The translations under genes and the position numbers were made by a program. Below, in pieces: positions 33,799-37,849 of a DNA stretch of 42,149 bases. The number at the start of each line of letters is the position of its first letter. Position 1 is the first letter of the stretch. The notes under the pieces are model-generated. The model saw only the letters and a list, made by a program, of their open reading frames with translations. It was not told the origin of the DNA and made no database searches. The DNA comes from Longimicrobium sp. (lineage in GTDB: Bacteria; Gemmatimonadota; Gemmatimonadetes; Longimicrobiales; Longimicrobiaceae): NCBI GenBank assembly GCA_036377595.1, contig DASUYB010000005.1, positions 1 through 42,149 of the forward strand. Direction: 5' to 3'.

Positions 33799-33827
33799 TT
33801 GACACCCCCGGAACCCACTGCTAGAAT
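33799..33827 (+). promoter_or_regulatory. Consensus promoter of the blaI-M56-HEAT operon
   Basis: A perfect TTGACA -35 box (33799-33804), a 17-base spacer and a TAGAAT -10 box (33822-33827) precede the BlaI-like gene by 82 bases. The 33500-33798 gap upstream carries no gene. Confidence 0.8.
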
Positions 33828-33854
33828 TCCAGCACGGTGCTGGAAATCCAGCAG
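33827..33854. promoter_or_regulatory. Palindromic operator at the start site (probable BlaI-type binding site)
   Basis: TTCCAGCAC-G-GTGCTGGAA (33827-33845) is a perfect 9-bp dyad starting within the -10 box and covering the expected start point; a further CCAGCA half-site follows at 33848-33854. Its position suits a dimeric repressor that autoregulates this operon. Confidence 0.65.
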
Positions 33855-33909
33855 CATCTCCGTCGCCCTACCCGAAGCAGTCCCACCTCGCACCCGCAGG
33901 AGACCCCGC

Positions 33910-34299
33910 ATGGGTCCCGAGCTCACCGCCGGCCTGAGCCGCAGGGAACGCCAGATCATGGACGTTCTCTACGCGCTGGGGCAGGCCACCGTCGGCGAGG
34001 TCCTGGAGCGCATCCCCGATCCCCCCAGCTACTCCGCCGTGCGCGCGACGATGCGCGTGCTGGAGGAGAAGGGCGAGATCGTGCACCTCCAGGACGGCCC
34101 CCGCTACCTGTACAAGCCCGTGACGCCGCAGGAGAGCGCGCGCACGGCGGCGCTGCGCCACCTGGTGCGCACCTTCTTCGGCGGCAGCGCCGAGGCCGCC
34201 GCCGCCGCGCTCCTGCGGATGAACGAGACCCGCCTGCCCGAGAGCGACCTGGAGCGCCTTGCCGCCCGGGTCGAATCCGCCCGCGACGAGGGGAGATGA
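33910..34299 (+). CDS. BlaI/MecI-family transcriptional repressor
   Basis: A 129-residue repressor of the BlaI/MecI family. The N-terminal winged helix begins ELTAGLSRRERQIMDVLYAL and contains YSAVRATMRVLEEKGEIVHL as the recognition helix and wing; the C-terminal half (ARTAALRHLVRTFFGGSAEA) is the dimerisation region, which in the family contains the bond cut by the partner protease. ATG 33910 has a GGAG ribosome site. It heads an operon: its stop overlaps the start of the M56 fusion gene. Repression of its own promoter through the palindrome at 33827 is inferred. The family controls beta-lactam resistance in staphylococci but is used for other signals in most genomes. Confidence 0.93.
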   Translation: MGPELTAGLSRRERQIMDVLYALGQATVGEVLERIPDPPSYSAVRATMRVLEEKGEIVHLQDGPRYLYKPVTPQESARTAALRHLVRTFFGGSAEAAAAALLRMNETRLPESDLERLAARVESARDEGR

Positions 34300-37010
34300 C
34301 GATGCCCGCTGCGCTTGCGCACTTCGTAGAGGCGGTCGTCCGCCTCCTTCCCGAGCTCTTCCTGAAGGCCACGCTGGTCCTGGCCGCCGCCGGCGCCCTG
34401 GCGCTGTCGCTGCGCCGCGCCCCCGCGGCCGCGCGGCACCTGGTGTGGGCGGCCGCGGTCGCGGGCGTGCTGATGCTTCCCTTCACGCCGCTGCTCTTCC
34501 CGTTCCGCCTCGGCGTCCTCCCGTCGTTCCTCCGCTCCGCTCCCGCGCCGCGCACGTGGACGGTCGAGCCCGCCGTCGCCGCGCCGCCCGCGCCGGCCGC
34601 CGCCGCGGAGGCTGCGTCGGGCGAGGCGACGACCGTGGCGCCCGTCGTCGCGGACGTCGCTCCGCCGGCGCCGGCGGCGATCGCATCGCCCGCCCCGGCA
34701 GTGGTGGCGCAGCCGGGCGAGCCCGCGCCGGCGCCGGAGGCCGTGGCCGTCGCGCCGACCGTCGAGGCCATGGGGACGCCGGCCGCCCTGGCGCCCCCGG
34801 CCGAAGCGCCGCGCGCGTGGCGGCTGGCCGACGTGCCGTGGCAGCAGCTGCTGATCGGCGTCTGGCTGCTGGGCGCGGCCGTCCTCGCCGTCCGCCTGCT
34901 GGTCGGGATGGCGACGATCTGGTGGCTGGCGCGCACGGGCGAGACGGTGACGGACGAGGGATGGACGTCGCTGGCCGCGCGGCTGTCGCGCGAGGTGTGG
35001 CTGAAGGGCGGCGTGCGCCTGATCCGCAGCCGCTGGACGGAGATGCCGATGACGTGGGGCGTCTTCAACCCCGTCGTCCTCCTCCCCGCCGGCGCCGACG
35101 AGTGGCCGCTGGAGCGCCGCGAGGTGGTGCTGATGCACGAGCTGGCGCACGTGGTCCGGCGCGACGTGCTCACGCTGGCCATCGCCCAGCTCGCCGTGGC
35201 GCTGCACTGGTTCAACCCGCTGAGCTGGATCGCCCTGCGCGAACTGCGCGCCGAGGCGGAGAAGTGCGCCGACGACTGGGTCCTCCGCTACGGCACCCGC
35301 GCGTCGACCTACGCCGACCACCTGCTCGACATGGTGCGCGTGGTGGGCCGGGCGCGCGTTCCCGAGGCGCTGGCGCTCCCGATGGCGCAGCGGTCGACCT
35401 TCGAGGGCCGCCTGCTGGCCATCCTGGAGCCGGGCGTGGACCGCGGCATCCTGCGCCGCGGACAGGCCGCGCTCACCGTCCTCGGTCTCGCCGGTCTCGT
35501 CGTCCTCCTCGGCGCCATGCGTCCGGCCGAGGCCCGGACCGCCGAGGCGGGTGGGGAATGGACGCCCGCGCCGGAGCTCCTCGCCGGCCGCGCGCCCGCC
35601 GCCACGCCGCCCGTGGTCGACTACGCGAAGGAGATGGCGCCCGCCGGCGAGACGGAGACGGCCGCCGCGCCGTCCGCCGTCGCCGCCGGGACGCCGGCCG
35701 AGCTTTCGCCCGAGGCGGCCGCCGCGGTGTCCGCGCTGACTGCCGCAGCCGCGACGCCGCCGGCGGCCGCTTCGGGCTCGACGGCGCCCGCGCCGCAGGA
35801 AGGGCGCGGGACGGCGCTCGCGCGGCTCGTGGCCACGCTGCGCGATCCGGTGGCGCAGGTGCGCGTGAGCGCCGTGCAGGCGCTGGGAAGCATGTCGGGT
35901 CTCGATCCCCGTTCCGTGGCCGCGCTGATCGAGGCGCTGCGCACTGACCAGGACGAGACCGTGCGCACCACCGCCGCGTGGGCGCTGGGGCAGATCGAGA
36001 ACCGCACGGCCACCCCCGCGCTGGTGTCCGCGATGACGGGCGACCGCTCGGTGAGTGTCCGCCGCACCGCCGCCTGGGCGCTGGGGCAGATGGAGGATCC
36101 CGCCGCGGTGGACGGCCTCGCCCGGGCCATGCGCGACGCTGACGCCGAGGTGCGGGTGACCGCCATCTGGGCGCTGGGGCAGATCGAGGACCGGCGCGCC
36201 GTCCCCGCGCTGACCGCGGCGCTGCGCGACGGCGACGCGTCGATCCGCCAGAAGTCGGCGTGGGCGCTGGGGCAGATCGAGGACCGGTCCGCCGTCCCCG
36301 GGCTCGCCGCGGCGCTGCGCGACAGCGATCGCGAGGTGCGCGCGACGGCGGTGTGGGCGCTCGGCCAGATCGAGTCACCCGAGGCCGTTCCCGCGCTCGG
36401 CGGCCTGCTGCGCGACGCCGACGCCAACGTGCGCAACCAGGCGGCTTGGGCGCTGGGGCAGATCGAGGCCGAGTCCGCCGTGCAGCCTCTCGCCGGCGTG
36501 GTGCAGAACGACGCCAGCGCCGAGGTGCGCAAGACCGCGGTGTGGGCGCTGGGGCAGATCGAGGCGCAGTCCTCCATCCCCGCGCTGTCGGCGGCGCTGC
36601 GCGACCGCGACGCCGGCGTGCGCGCGCAGGCGGCCTGGGCGATCGGCCAGGTGGAGCCCGCGCAGGCGCCCGCCGCGCTGGTGGCCGCGCTGCGGGACGA
36701 CGACCGCAACGTGCGCCGCCAGGCCGCGTGGGCGCTGTCGCAGGTCAGGGGCGACCCGTCCATCGTCGCCCCGCTCCGCGCGGCGCTGCGCGACTCCGAC
36801 CCGGAGGTGAAGCACCTCGCCCTGCGCGCGCTCGCCCGCACCGGCGACGAGTCGGCGGCCCAGGCCGTCGCGGAGATGCTGCGCGATCCCGATCCGCAGG
36901 TCCGCGCCATGGCGGCGGCCATCATGGGCGGCCACGGCGGGTTCGCCGATCCGCGCCCCGAGCCACGGCCCCGGCCGCGCCCGGAGCCGCGTCCCCGCCC
37001 CATGAACTGA
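34296..37010 (+). CDS. M56 (BlaR1-like) membrane protease fused to HEAT repeats
   Basis: A 904-residue fusion. Residues 1-410 match the BlaR1/MecR1 membrane part: helices near 10-35 and 45-70, one near 185-205, the zinc-protease segment VVLMHELAHVVRRDVLTLAI with HELAH at about 281-285, LHWFNPLSWIALRELRAEAE with the third ligand, and a last helix TVLGLAGLVVLLGAM near 390-405. An Ala/Pro/Glu-rich linker of about 100 residues follows. Residues 510-890 are about 12 HEAT repeats of 31 residues, each with AWALGQIE, followed by a Pro/Arg tail. BlaR1 proteins end with a penicillin-binding sensor; here HEAT repeats replace it, presumably outside the cytoplasm. ATG 34296 overlaps blaI's stop, and ATG 34302 is better spaced from the GAGGGGAG ribosome site. 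It should cleave the BlaI-like repressor when signalled. Confidence 0.9.
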   Translation: MTMPAALAHFVEAVVRLLPELFLKATLVLAAAGALALSLRRAPAAARHLVWAAAVAGVLMLPFTPLLFPFRLGVLPSFLRSAPAPRTWTVEPAVAAPPAPAAAAEAASGEATTVAPVVADVAPPAPAAIASPAPAVVAQPGEPAPAPEAVAVAPTVEAMGTPAALAPPAEAPRAWRLADVPWQQLLIGVWLLGAAVLAVRLLVGMATIWWLARTGETVTDEGWTSLAARLSREVWLKGGVRLIRSRWTEMPMTWGVFNPVVLLPAGADEWPLERREVVLMHELAHVVRRDVLTLAIAQLAVALHWFNPLSWIALRELRAEAEKCADDWVLRYGTRASTYADHLLDMVRVVGRARVPEALALPMAQRSTFEGRLLAILEPGVDRGILRRGQAALTVLGLAGLVVLLGAMRPAEARTAEAGGEWTPAPELLAGRAPAATPPVVDYAKEMAPAGETETAAAPSAVAAGTPAELSPEAAAAVSALTAAAATPPAAASGSTAPAPQEGRGTALARLVATLRDPVAQVRVSAVQALGSMSGLDPRSVAALIEALRTDQDETVRTTAAWALGQIENRTATPALVSAMTGDRSVSVRRTAAWALGQMEDPAAVDGLARAMRDADAEVRVTAIWALGQIEDRRAVPALTAALRDGDASIRQKSAWALGQIEDRSAVPGLAAALRDSDREVRATAVWALGQIESPEAVPALGGLLRDADANVRNQAAWALGQIEAESAVQPLAGVVQNDASAEVRKTAVWALGQIEAQSSIPALSAALRDRDAGVRAQAAWAIGQVEPAQAPAALVAALRDDDRNVRRQAAWALSQVRGDPSIVAPLRAALRDSDPEVKHLALRALARTGDESAAQAVAEMLRDPDPQVRAMAAAIMGGHGGFADPRPEPRPRPRPEPRPRPMN

Positions 37011-37024
37011 CGGCGGAGGAAGCG

Positions 37025-37849
37025 ATGACCAGAATCGAACGCTTCGCGCGGCGCCACCCTGCGGGGACCGCCGCGATGGCCGGGCTCGCCCTGCTGGCGC
37101 TTCCCGCCACCCTCCTCTCGCGCACCTCGCGCCATGCGGAGGGAGATGGAGACGGGCCGCGGCTGGCGGTGGAGATCACCCGTGCGCAGCAGGAGGGCGG
37201 CGCCCGGTCGCTGCTGGCCGCGGTGCGCGGCGCCAACCCCACGCTCTGCGAGCTGGCGACGGCCGCGGTGGGCAACGGCTGGCCATGGGGATCGGGGGAT
37301 GCCGACGACGCCCCCGCCCTGGGCCAGCGCACCGACGAGACGCGGCGCGCGCTCGACTGGCTCGCCGCGCACGTCGGCTCGCCCGCGGAGGTGGCGGTGC
37401 TGCGCGACGGGCTGGCGGACCCGGACGCCTGCGTGCGCCGCGTCTCCGCGCGGCTGCTGGGCCGCGGGCGGACGCAGGCCGGCGTCGACGCGCTGCTCGA
37501 GGCGCTGCGCTCGAACGAGCCGGCGCGGCGCGACGCCGCCATCCTCGGCATCGGCTACACCGACGATCCGCGCGCCGTGGCACCGCTCACGTCGCTGCTG
37601 GGGGATCGCGATCCGGAGGTTCGCGGCGGCGCCGCGTGGGCGCTGGGTCACGTCGGCAGCCGGGACGCCACCCCCGCGCTCACCCGCCTGGTCGGCGACG
37701 GCGAGCCGCGGGTGCGCCGCTCCGCCGCCCGCGCGCTGGGCCGGCTGGAGGACGCGAACGCCATCCCCGCGCTCGCCCAGCTCCTCTCGCGCGACCCCGA
37801 CCCCACCGTCCGCCGCGCCGCCGCCTGGGCGCTCGGCAAGATCGAATAA
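37025..37849 (+). CDS. Membrane-anchored HEAT-repeat protein
   Basis: A 274-residue protein. It has an N-terminal anchor helix (MAGLALLALPATLLSRTSRH after a positively charged MTRIERFARRHP) and, from about residue 90, five to six HEAT repeats with the same AWALG signature as the preceding gene (EVRGGAAWALGHVGSRDATP, VRRAAAWALGKIE at the end). The orientation (positive N-terminus inside) puts the repeats in the periplasm, where the M56 fusion's HEAT region should also lie; the two could bind one another or a common ligand (inference). ATG 37025 has a GGAGG ribosome site and follows 14 bases after the fusion gene. The stop is 15 bases before a long hairpin. The function is unknown. Confidence 0.85.
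   Translation: MTRIERFARRHPAGTAAMAGLALLALPATLLSRTSRHAEGDGDGPRLAVEITRAQQEGGARSLLAAVRGANPTLCELATAAVGNGWPWGSGDADDAPALGQRTDETRRALDWLAAHVGSPAEVAVLRDGLADPDACVRRVSARLLGRGRTQAGVDALLEALRSNEPARRDAAILGIGYTDDPRAVAPLTSLLGDRDPEVRGGAAWALGHVGSRDATPALTRLVGDGEPRVRRSAARALGRLEDANAIPALAQLLSRDPDPTVRRAAAWALGKIE

Follow-up and report, generated by a model that had tools for sequence, protein, structure and literature searches.

A BlaI/M56 protease module of Longimicrobium with a predicted outer HEAT-repeat sensor and a homologous neighbouring partner

The membrane protease BlaR1 is, to our knowledge, known almost wholly through antibiotic resistance. Its topology is Nout-Cout with the sensor outside the cell, and the outer loop between the transmembrane segments TM2 and TM3 occupies the sensor site until it is displaced by the ligand (PMC9834060). 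In staphylococci, the signal is removed by the exported enzyme that the system induces (PMC9834060, PMC7593790). The pair PetR/PetP of Synechocystis is composed of a BlaI-like repressor and a BlaR1-like copper-dependent protease; petE/petJ are under its control, and copper is its proposed signal (PMC7896320). A stretch of 42,149 nucleotides from a Longimicrobium sp. (contig DASUYB010000005.1; hereafter the window), belonging to a 7.2-Mb high-GC draft genome, contains an operon that codes for a BlaI-family repressor, an M56 protease fused to HEAT repeats and a second HEAT protein. A first-pass annotation, made from the sequence alone, had placed this operon at positions 33799-37849, and these limits are correct. 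The module is most probably a real and conserved signalling system. We consider it somewhat probable that it acts as a self-contained module of the BlaR1 type, in which the HEAT array would read a ligand also bound by the induced partner.

The first gene (33910..34299, + strand) codes for a repressor of 129 amino acids that matches the Pfam family Penicillinase_R (79 bits, E 4e-22), as expected from the BlaI-like protein announced in the first-pass annotation. Its reading frame overlaps by 4 bp that of the receptor, an M56 protease-HEAT fusion of 904 amino acids (34296..37010, + strand) recognized by Pfam, a profile match to BlaR1, hydropathy and an AlphaFold2 model. The gene of the partner HEAT protein (274 amino acids; 37025..37849, + strand) starts 14 bp after the receptor gene. 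In a comparison with the related locus L039, all three genes have a ratio of nonsynonymous to synonymous substitution rates lower than 1 (BlaI 0.11, protease core 0.28, HEAT array 0.53 and partner 0.43).

The receptor displays, in this order, TM1-TM2, a Pro/Ala-rich outer loop, TM3, a cytoplasmic zinc protease, TM4, a disordered linker, the HEAT array and a Pro-rich tail. The four hydrophobic segments correspond to residues 21-39, 49-67, 185-203 and 390-408. Pfam detects the domains Peptidase_M56 (92 bits) and HEAT_2 (268 bits), and the AlphaFold2 model contains 12 helix pairs over residues 502-877, mostly with high confidence; the BlaR1-like zinc protease with about 12 HEAT repeats, first proposed from the letters of the DNA, is thus recovered. 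The protease site, predicted to be intact, is formed by H281ELAH and E322xxxD326, with His281, His285 and Glu322 as zinc ligands. The spacing of 41 residues between His281 and Glu322 is that found between His201 and Glu242 of BlaR1, and the residues of the HEXXH and ExxxD motifs are invariant across the aligned receptors. With a profile of the M56 part, the only relative of solved structure is BlaR1 of S. aureus (E 7e-11; 8EXS/8EXP). No penicillin-binding sensor domain was detected by Pfam in the receptor, which carries HEAT repeats instead, and no beta-lactamase or penicillin-binding protein (PBP) was detected by Pfam in the operon, where a HEAT protein stands at the effector position. The outer loop EL1 (residues 68-180; 34497..34835, + strand) is the counterpart of the sensor-site loop of BlaR1. 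It comprises about 110 residues, is predicted to be disordered and its sequence is not conserved; by analogy, we would guess that it plays the same part as the TM2-TM3 loop.

Both HEAT arrays are predicted to lie outside the cytoplasm, as the first-pass annotation had supposed from the BlaR1 topology. The hydropathy and charge pattern of the receptor and its profile match to 8EXS/8EXP predict four TM helices with the protease inside and the sensor outside, and the partner has a hydrophobic N-terminal signal or anchor and few cysteines. Many known HEAT proteins are cytoplasmic, and arrays acting on BlaI or on the protease from the inside could be imagined on this ground. Such an arrangement is very improbable here, given the position of the array after TM4 in a BlaR1-like topology, the hydrophobic N-termini of the partners and their few and partly conserved cysteines.

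The HEAT array (residues 506-880; 35811..36935, + strand) is composed of 12 helix pairs, with tryptophans at positions 562, 594, 625, 656, 687, 718, 750, 781 and 812. The partner, foreseen as a second membrane-anchored HEAT protein, matches HEAT_2 with 118 bits and has its signal or anchor at residues 13-31, as judged from hydropathy; a conserved Cys/Trp module that precedes the HEAT repeats follows. All the partners examined have such a hydrophobic N-terminus and two or three cysteines (Cys75 and Cys136 in the window). Across phyla, the alignment retains the cysteine of the Cys/Trp module, the second cysteine being less strictly aligned, and a disulphide may be formed. The solenoid fold of tandem helix pairs, supported by prediction in both proteins, finds its nearest structures for the receptor array in the designed alphaReps, followed by importin-alpha and others (Foldseek); the AlphaFold2 model of the partner likewise has alphaReps, and also designed Arm proteins, among its Foldseek matches. 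Nearly all repeats of the receptors and of the partners, across phyla, have a tryptophan at one and the same position, whereas this site differs between the repeats of the designed alphaRep in the alignment. The scan also recovered other HEAT proteins from the genome, which lack a tryptophan at that position; being only a handful, they are a weak control. This placement resembles that of peptide-binding solenoids such as Arm repeats. The uniform repeating surface of the models suggests an extended or periodic ligand.

The receptor ends in the Pro-rich tail DPRPEPRPRPRPEPRPRPMN (36948..37007, + strand), and similar (XP)n tails are found in relatives. In a large related clade of Gemmatimonadota, such tails end both proteins, and receptor and partner share similar PWPWPWPRPRPFP-like sequences. 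When 11 genomes were searched at the DNA level, the PW form of the tail was confined to these modules and to a single orphan gene of a partner, so that a role of the tail as a general sorting signal is unsupported. The orphan is a HEAT partner with a PWPWPWPRPRPFP tail (locus L258, G122:C4, open reading frame (ORF) from 5281); neither M56 nor BlaI was found in its 10-kb stretch. The shared tails are also an argument for the chief alternative, in which the partner would be a titratable inhibitor or co-receptor that docks on the HEAT array of the receptor, either array against array or with the Pro-rich tail in the groove. The docked partner would keep the protease off, envelope damage would draw it away and induction would restore silence. 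We regard this alternative as possible but rather doubtful: the partners have a Cys/Trp module of their own, and the systems of Acidobacteriota type (L080 and L097) have no tails yet keep the Trp ladder.

The co-occurrence of the genes, suggested as a check in the first-pass annotation, is conserved in many genera of at least three phyla, with members in Gemmatimonadota, Acidobacteriota and Rhodothermia; neither this check nor the topology prediction contradicts the first-pass reading. The full triad BlaI/M56-HEAT/HEAT is present in the genus relatives L039, L041 and L042, and in L043 up to the contig end. An enlarged sample contains 32 strong M56-HEAT fusions (above 75 bits), nearly all beside BlaI; about 28 have an adjoining HEAT gene on the same strand, a count that combines the partner list and the pairing test described below. 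The window, L039, L066, L226, L232 and L237 were counted by the pairing test, their ORF starts lying too far upstream for the partner list. The sample was partly drawn by similarity to the window protein, and the share of the HEAT type is therefore not a population estimate. Few of the genes in the genome are HEAT genes (34 HEAT_2 matches over 7.2 Mb). The M56 cores are nearly identical in L088, from a Gemmatimonadetes metagenome-assembled genome, and in L240 (G069), from the window's own class, in line with an origin of the window in the phylum Gemmatimonadota. No relative of the module was found among viral contigs, and a viral origin was set aside. That M56 activity can respond to metal, as in PetRP (PMC7896320), would leave room for receptors that do not signal to BlaI, their arrays merely scaffolding or anchoring envelope proteins while BlaI autoregulates by another cue. 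We hold this to be improbable, since BlaI adjoins nearly all receptors, the two reading frames overlap in the window and the catalytic motifs are invariant.

The matching of sensor and partner extends to other M56 proteases. We collected 80 named loci with the M56 part alone and compared the region following the protease with the neighbouring genes, using neighbourhoods swapped between loci as control. For 21 of 77 loci, the surroundings up to 5 kb, the gene itself excluded, contain a homologue of this region, against 7 of 462 swapped neighbourhoods, and the strongest matches of the control join loci of the same type. In a few of the 21 pairs (L094, L128), another M56 gene provides the homologue. 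All 54 pairs of the enlarged sample are on the same strand and the homologue lies downstream in 50 of them. The pairing types are HEAT, a 'GVTP' repeat, a 'TERR' helical repeat and others represented by single or few cases; the GVTP and TERR repeats have no Pfam match in the proteins scanned. As judged from sequence, the outer domain of M56 proteases thus appears often to be homologous to a neighbouring exported protein, with several unrelated domain types.

The locus L044 (2081-5513) codes for BlaI, an M56 receptor and a stand-alone protein, and the latter two share the uncharacterised repeat GVTPxYxRxLRxLG, without Pfam match. Receptor and partner are both of the GVTP type and mutually 59% identical over 242 residues. 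The protease part is 62% identical to that of the window receptor (a direct BLAST of the two receptors aligned the N-terminal piece only), and the operator region has the same form as in the HEAT modules of the genus. In a tree built on protease cores, the L044 protease nests inside the M56-HEAT clade of the genus (bootstrap and Shimodaira-Hasegawa-like approximate likelihood ratio test of 100 and 99). The grouping of all GVTP receptors in one clade is rejected (p 1e-64), and so is a clade of the genus HEAT sequences without L044, with p 0.007, a value to be read with care because the groups were named after the first tree was seen. An earlier tree, in which domain borders reaching into the HEAT repeats had misplaced several sequences, was replaced by the protease-core tree. 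As L044 lies inside the HEAT clade and carries a sensor and a partner both of the GVTP type, the phylogeny indicates that the two were exchanged jointly; without a functional match between them, such a joint change would be difficult to account for. Homologous domains that change together fit the preferred reading, in which both proteins would bind the same ligand, and they would also fit a homotypic complex of receptor and docked inhibitor.

Other M56 paralogues show further combinations. In L045-L055, the receptors have helical repeats of the form SDTERRLVL and a small second domain, and the neighbouring exported protein has both in the other order; in L047, the only example scanned, the C-terminus of the receptor and the partner gave no Pfam match. 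In several of these loci a gene of about 880 amino acids follows, of the DUF5916/CBM9 type in L047, the sole one scanned. Among other M56 genes of the window's genome (L064:2474-3967, L063:5363-6799 and L060:2440-5280), the domains found after the protease are an SLT transglycosylase, PDZ, or DUF4097 with weak HEAT, which hints at varied envelope inputs.

The operon is preceded by a sigma70-type promoter (33799..33827, + strand) with the -35 box TTGACA at 33799-33804, a 17-bp spacer and the -10 box TAGAAT at 33822-33827. Identical -35, spacer and -10 elements precede BlaI in L039 and L041. The consensus promoter of the first-pass annotation is confirmed, and its overlapping palindrome can be refined to a tandem operator of two 16-bp dyads (33819..33853, + strand), TGCTAGAATTCCAGCA at 33819-33834 and TGCTGGAAATCCAGCA at 33838-33853, separated by the 3 bp CGG. 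The dyads, a putative BlaI site, cover the expected transcription start and the -10 box, which is held within the first dyad. The genus orthologues L039, L041 and L042 have the tandem operator in front of BlaI as well, L042 with a third, degenerate copy, and distant modules such as L230, L236, L234 and L111 display tandem dyads with the same 19-bp period. The motif TGCTN8AGCA is found upstream of 13 of the 31 BlaI genes of HEAT modules, compared to 16 of 620 random stretches. The tandem motif has a single occurrence in the 7.2-Mb genome, and on the simplest reading the module therefore appears to regulate itself, with its own HEAT proteins as output. A search for further regulon targets with a single dyad gave mostly background; consequently, we claim no additional targets. 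The dyads of other M56 paralogue groups differ (TGCTGAATATTCAGCA and TGCTAGTGTACTGACA), which suggests insulated parallel circuits.

From these features, the following mechanism can be proposed. BlaI would bind the tandem operator over the -10 box and keep the operon low. The M56 protein would span the inner membrane, its zinc protease facing the cytoplasm; its HEAT array would lie on the outer side, where it may read an extended, periodic envelope ligand (a peptide or a polymer) through the Trp ladder. Binding of the ligand would activate the protease, BlaI would be cleaved and the operon derepressed. The main product would be the exported HEAT partner that, with its similar surface, would bind the same ligand, neutralise or handle it and shut the signal off; this role is proposed by analogy with the staphylococcal enzyme. 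Three points weigh against this proposal. The partner could be an inhibitor or a co-receptor rather than a ligand binder, not every receptor is paired (the pairing test showed no homologous neighbour for a part of the HEAT receptors and for the majority of the other M56 types), and the uniqueness of the operator rests on a search with one form of the motif.

Elsewhere in the window, the minus strand carries at 38982-40635 genes of PqqD-like, Transglut_core3 and HPr-kinase-like types, an arrangement reminiscent of lasso peptide processing.

The module shares with the staphylococcal systems BlaI/BlaR1/BlaZ and MecI/MecR1/PBP2a a repressor of the BlaI family, adjacent here and in nearly all relatives to an M56 membrane protease with HEXXH...ExxxD, a sensor predicted outside after the last TM segment, an exported effector in the regulon and an operon under a putative operator. 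It differs by a HEAT array in place of the penicillin-binding sensor of BlaR1 and MecR1, by an effector that is a HEAT protein and not a beta-lactamase or a PBP, and by the long Pro/Ala stretch of the outer loop. PetR/PetP has in common with it the BlaI/M56 pair and, probably, a non-beta-lactam input and a small regulon, whereas no HEAT array or mirrored partner is mentioned for that system (PMC7896320), and neither the operon nor the scanned neighbours showed a petE or petJ. The first-pass annotation had presented the locus as a candidate for a new system with a non-beta-lactam input. Such an input is already known for BlaI/M56 pairs from PetRP (PMC7896320); the M56-HEAT receptor with a HEAT partner is real and conserved, and in the sequences compared the HEAT type appears to be one case of a general M56-X/X arrangement, wider than that annotation held. 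Neither M56-HEAT receptors nor the sensor-partner rule turned up in our searches of the open literature, and the data point to an apparently undescribed signalling family, modular in build, that works from the outside to the inside. The sequence of the repeats matches an alphaRep fusion with E 2.6e-69, and the predicted fold of the array resembles that of alphaReps as well as those of importin-alpha and designed ArmRPs, which bind extended peptides; alphaReps are artificial and soluble and importin-alpha is eukaryotic, whereas the array is here a receptor domain. We see about an even chance that the M56 receptors are a large signalling family of modular build: irrespective of fold, the outer sensor would be a fused relative of the adjacent exported effector and would be exchanged with it as a set, and the HEAT type would be an alphaRep-like receptor of natural origin that recognizes a periodic ligand of the envelope. 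If this is true of M56 receptors generally, the soluble partner could serve as bait in the search for the ligand of each, natural HEAT receptors would be close in sequence to designed alphaRep binders, and the beta-lactam case would be one example of a broad outside-to-inside design in little-studied phyla of soil and water.

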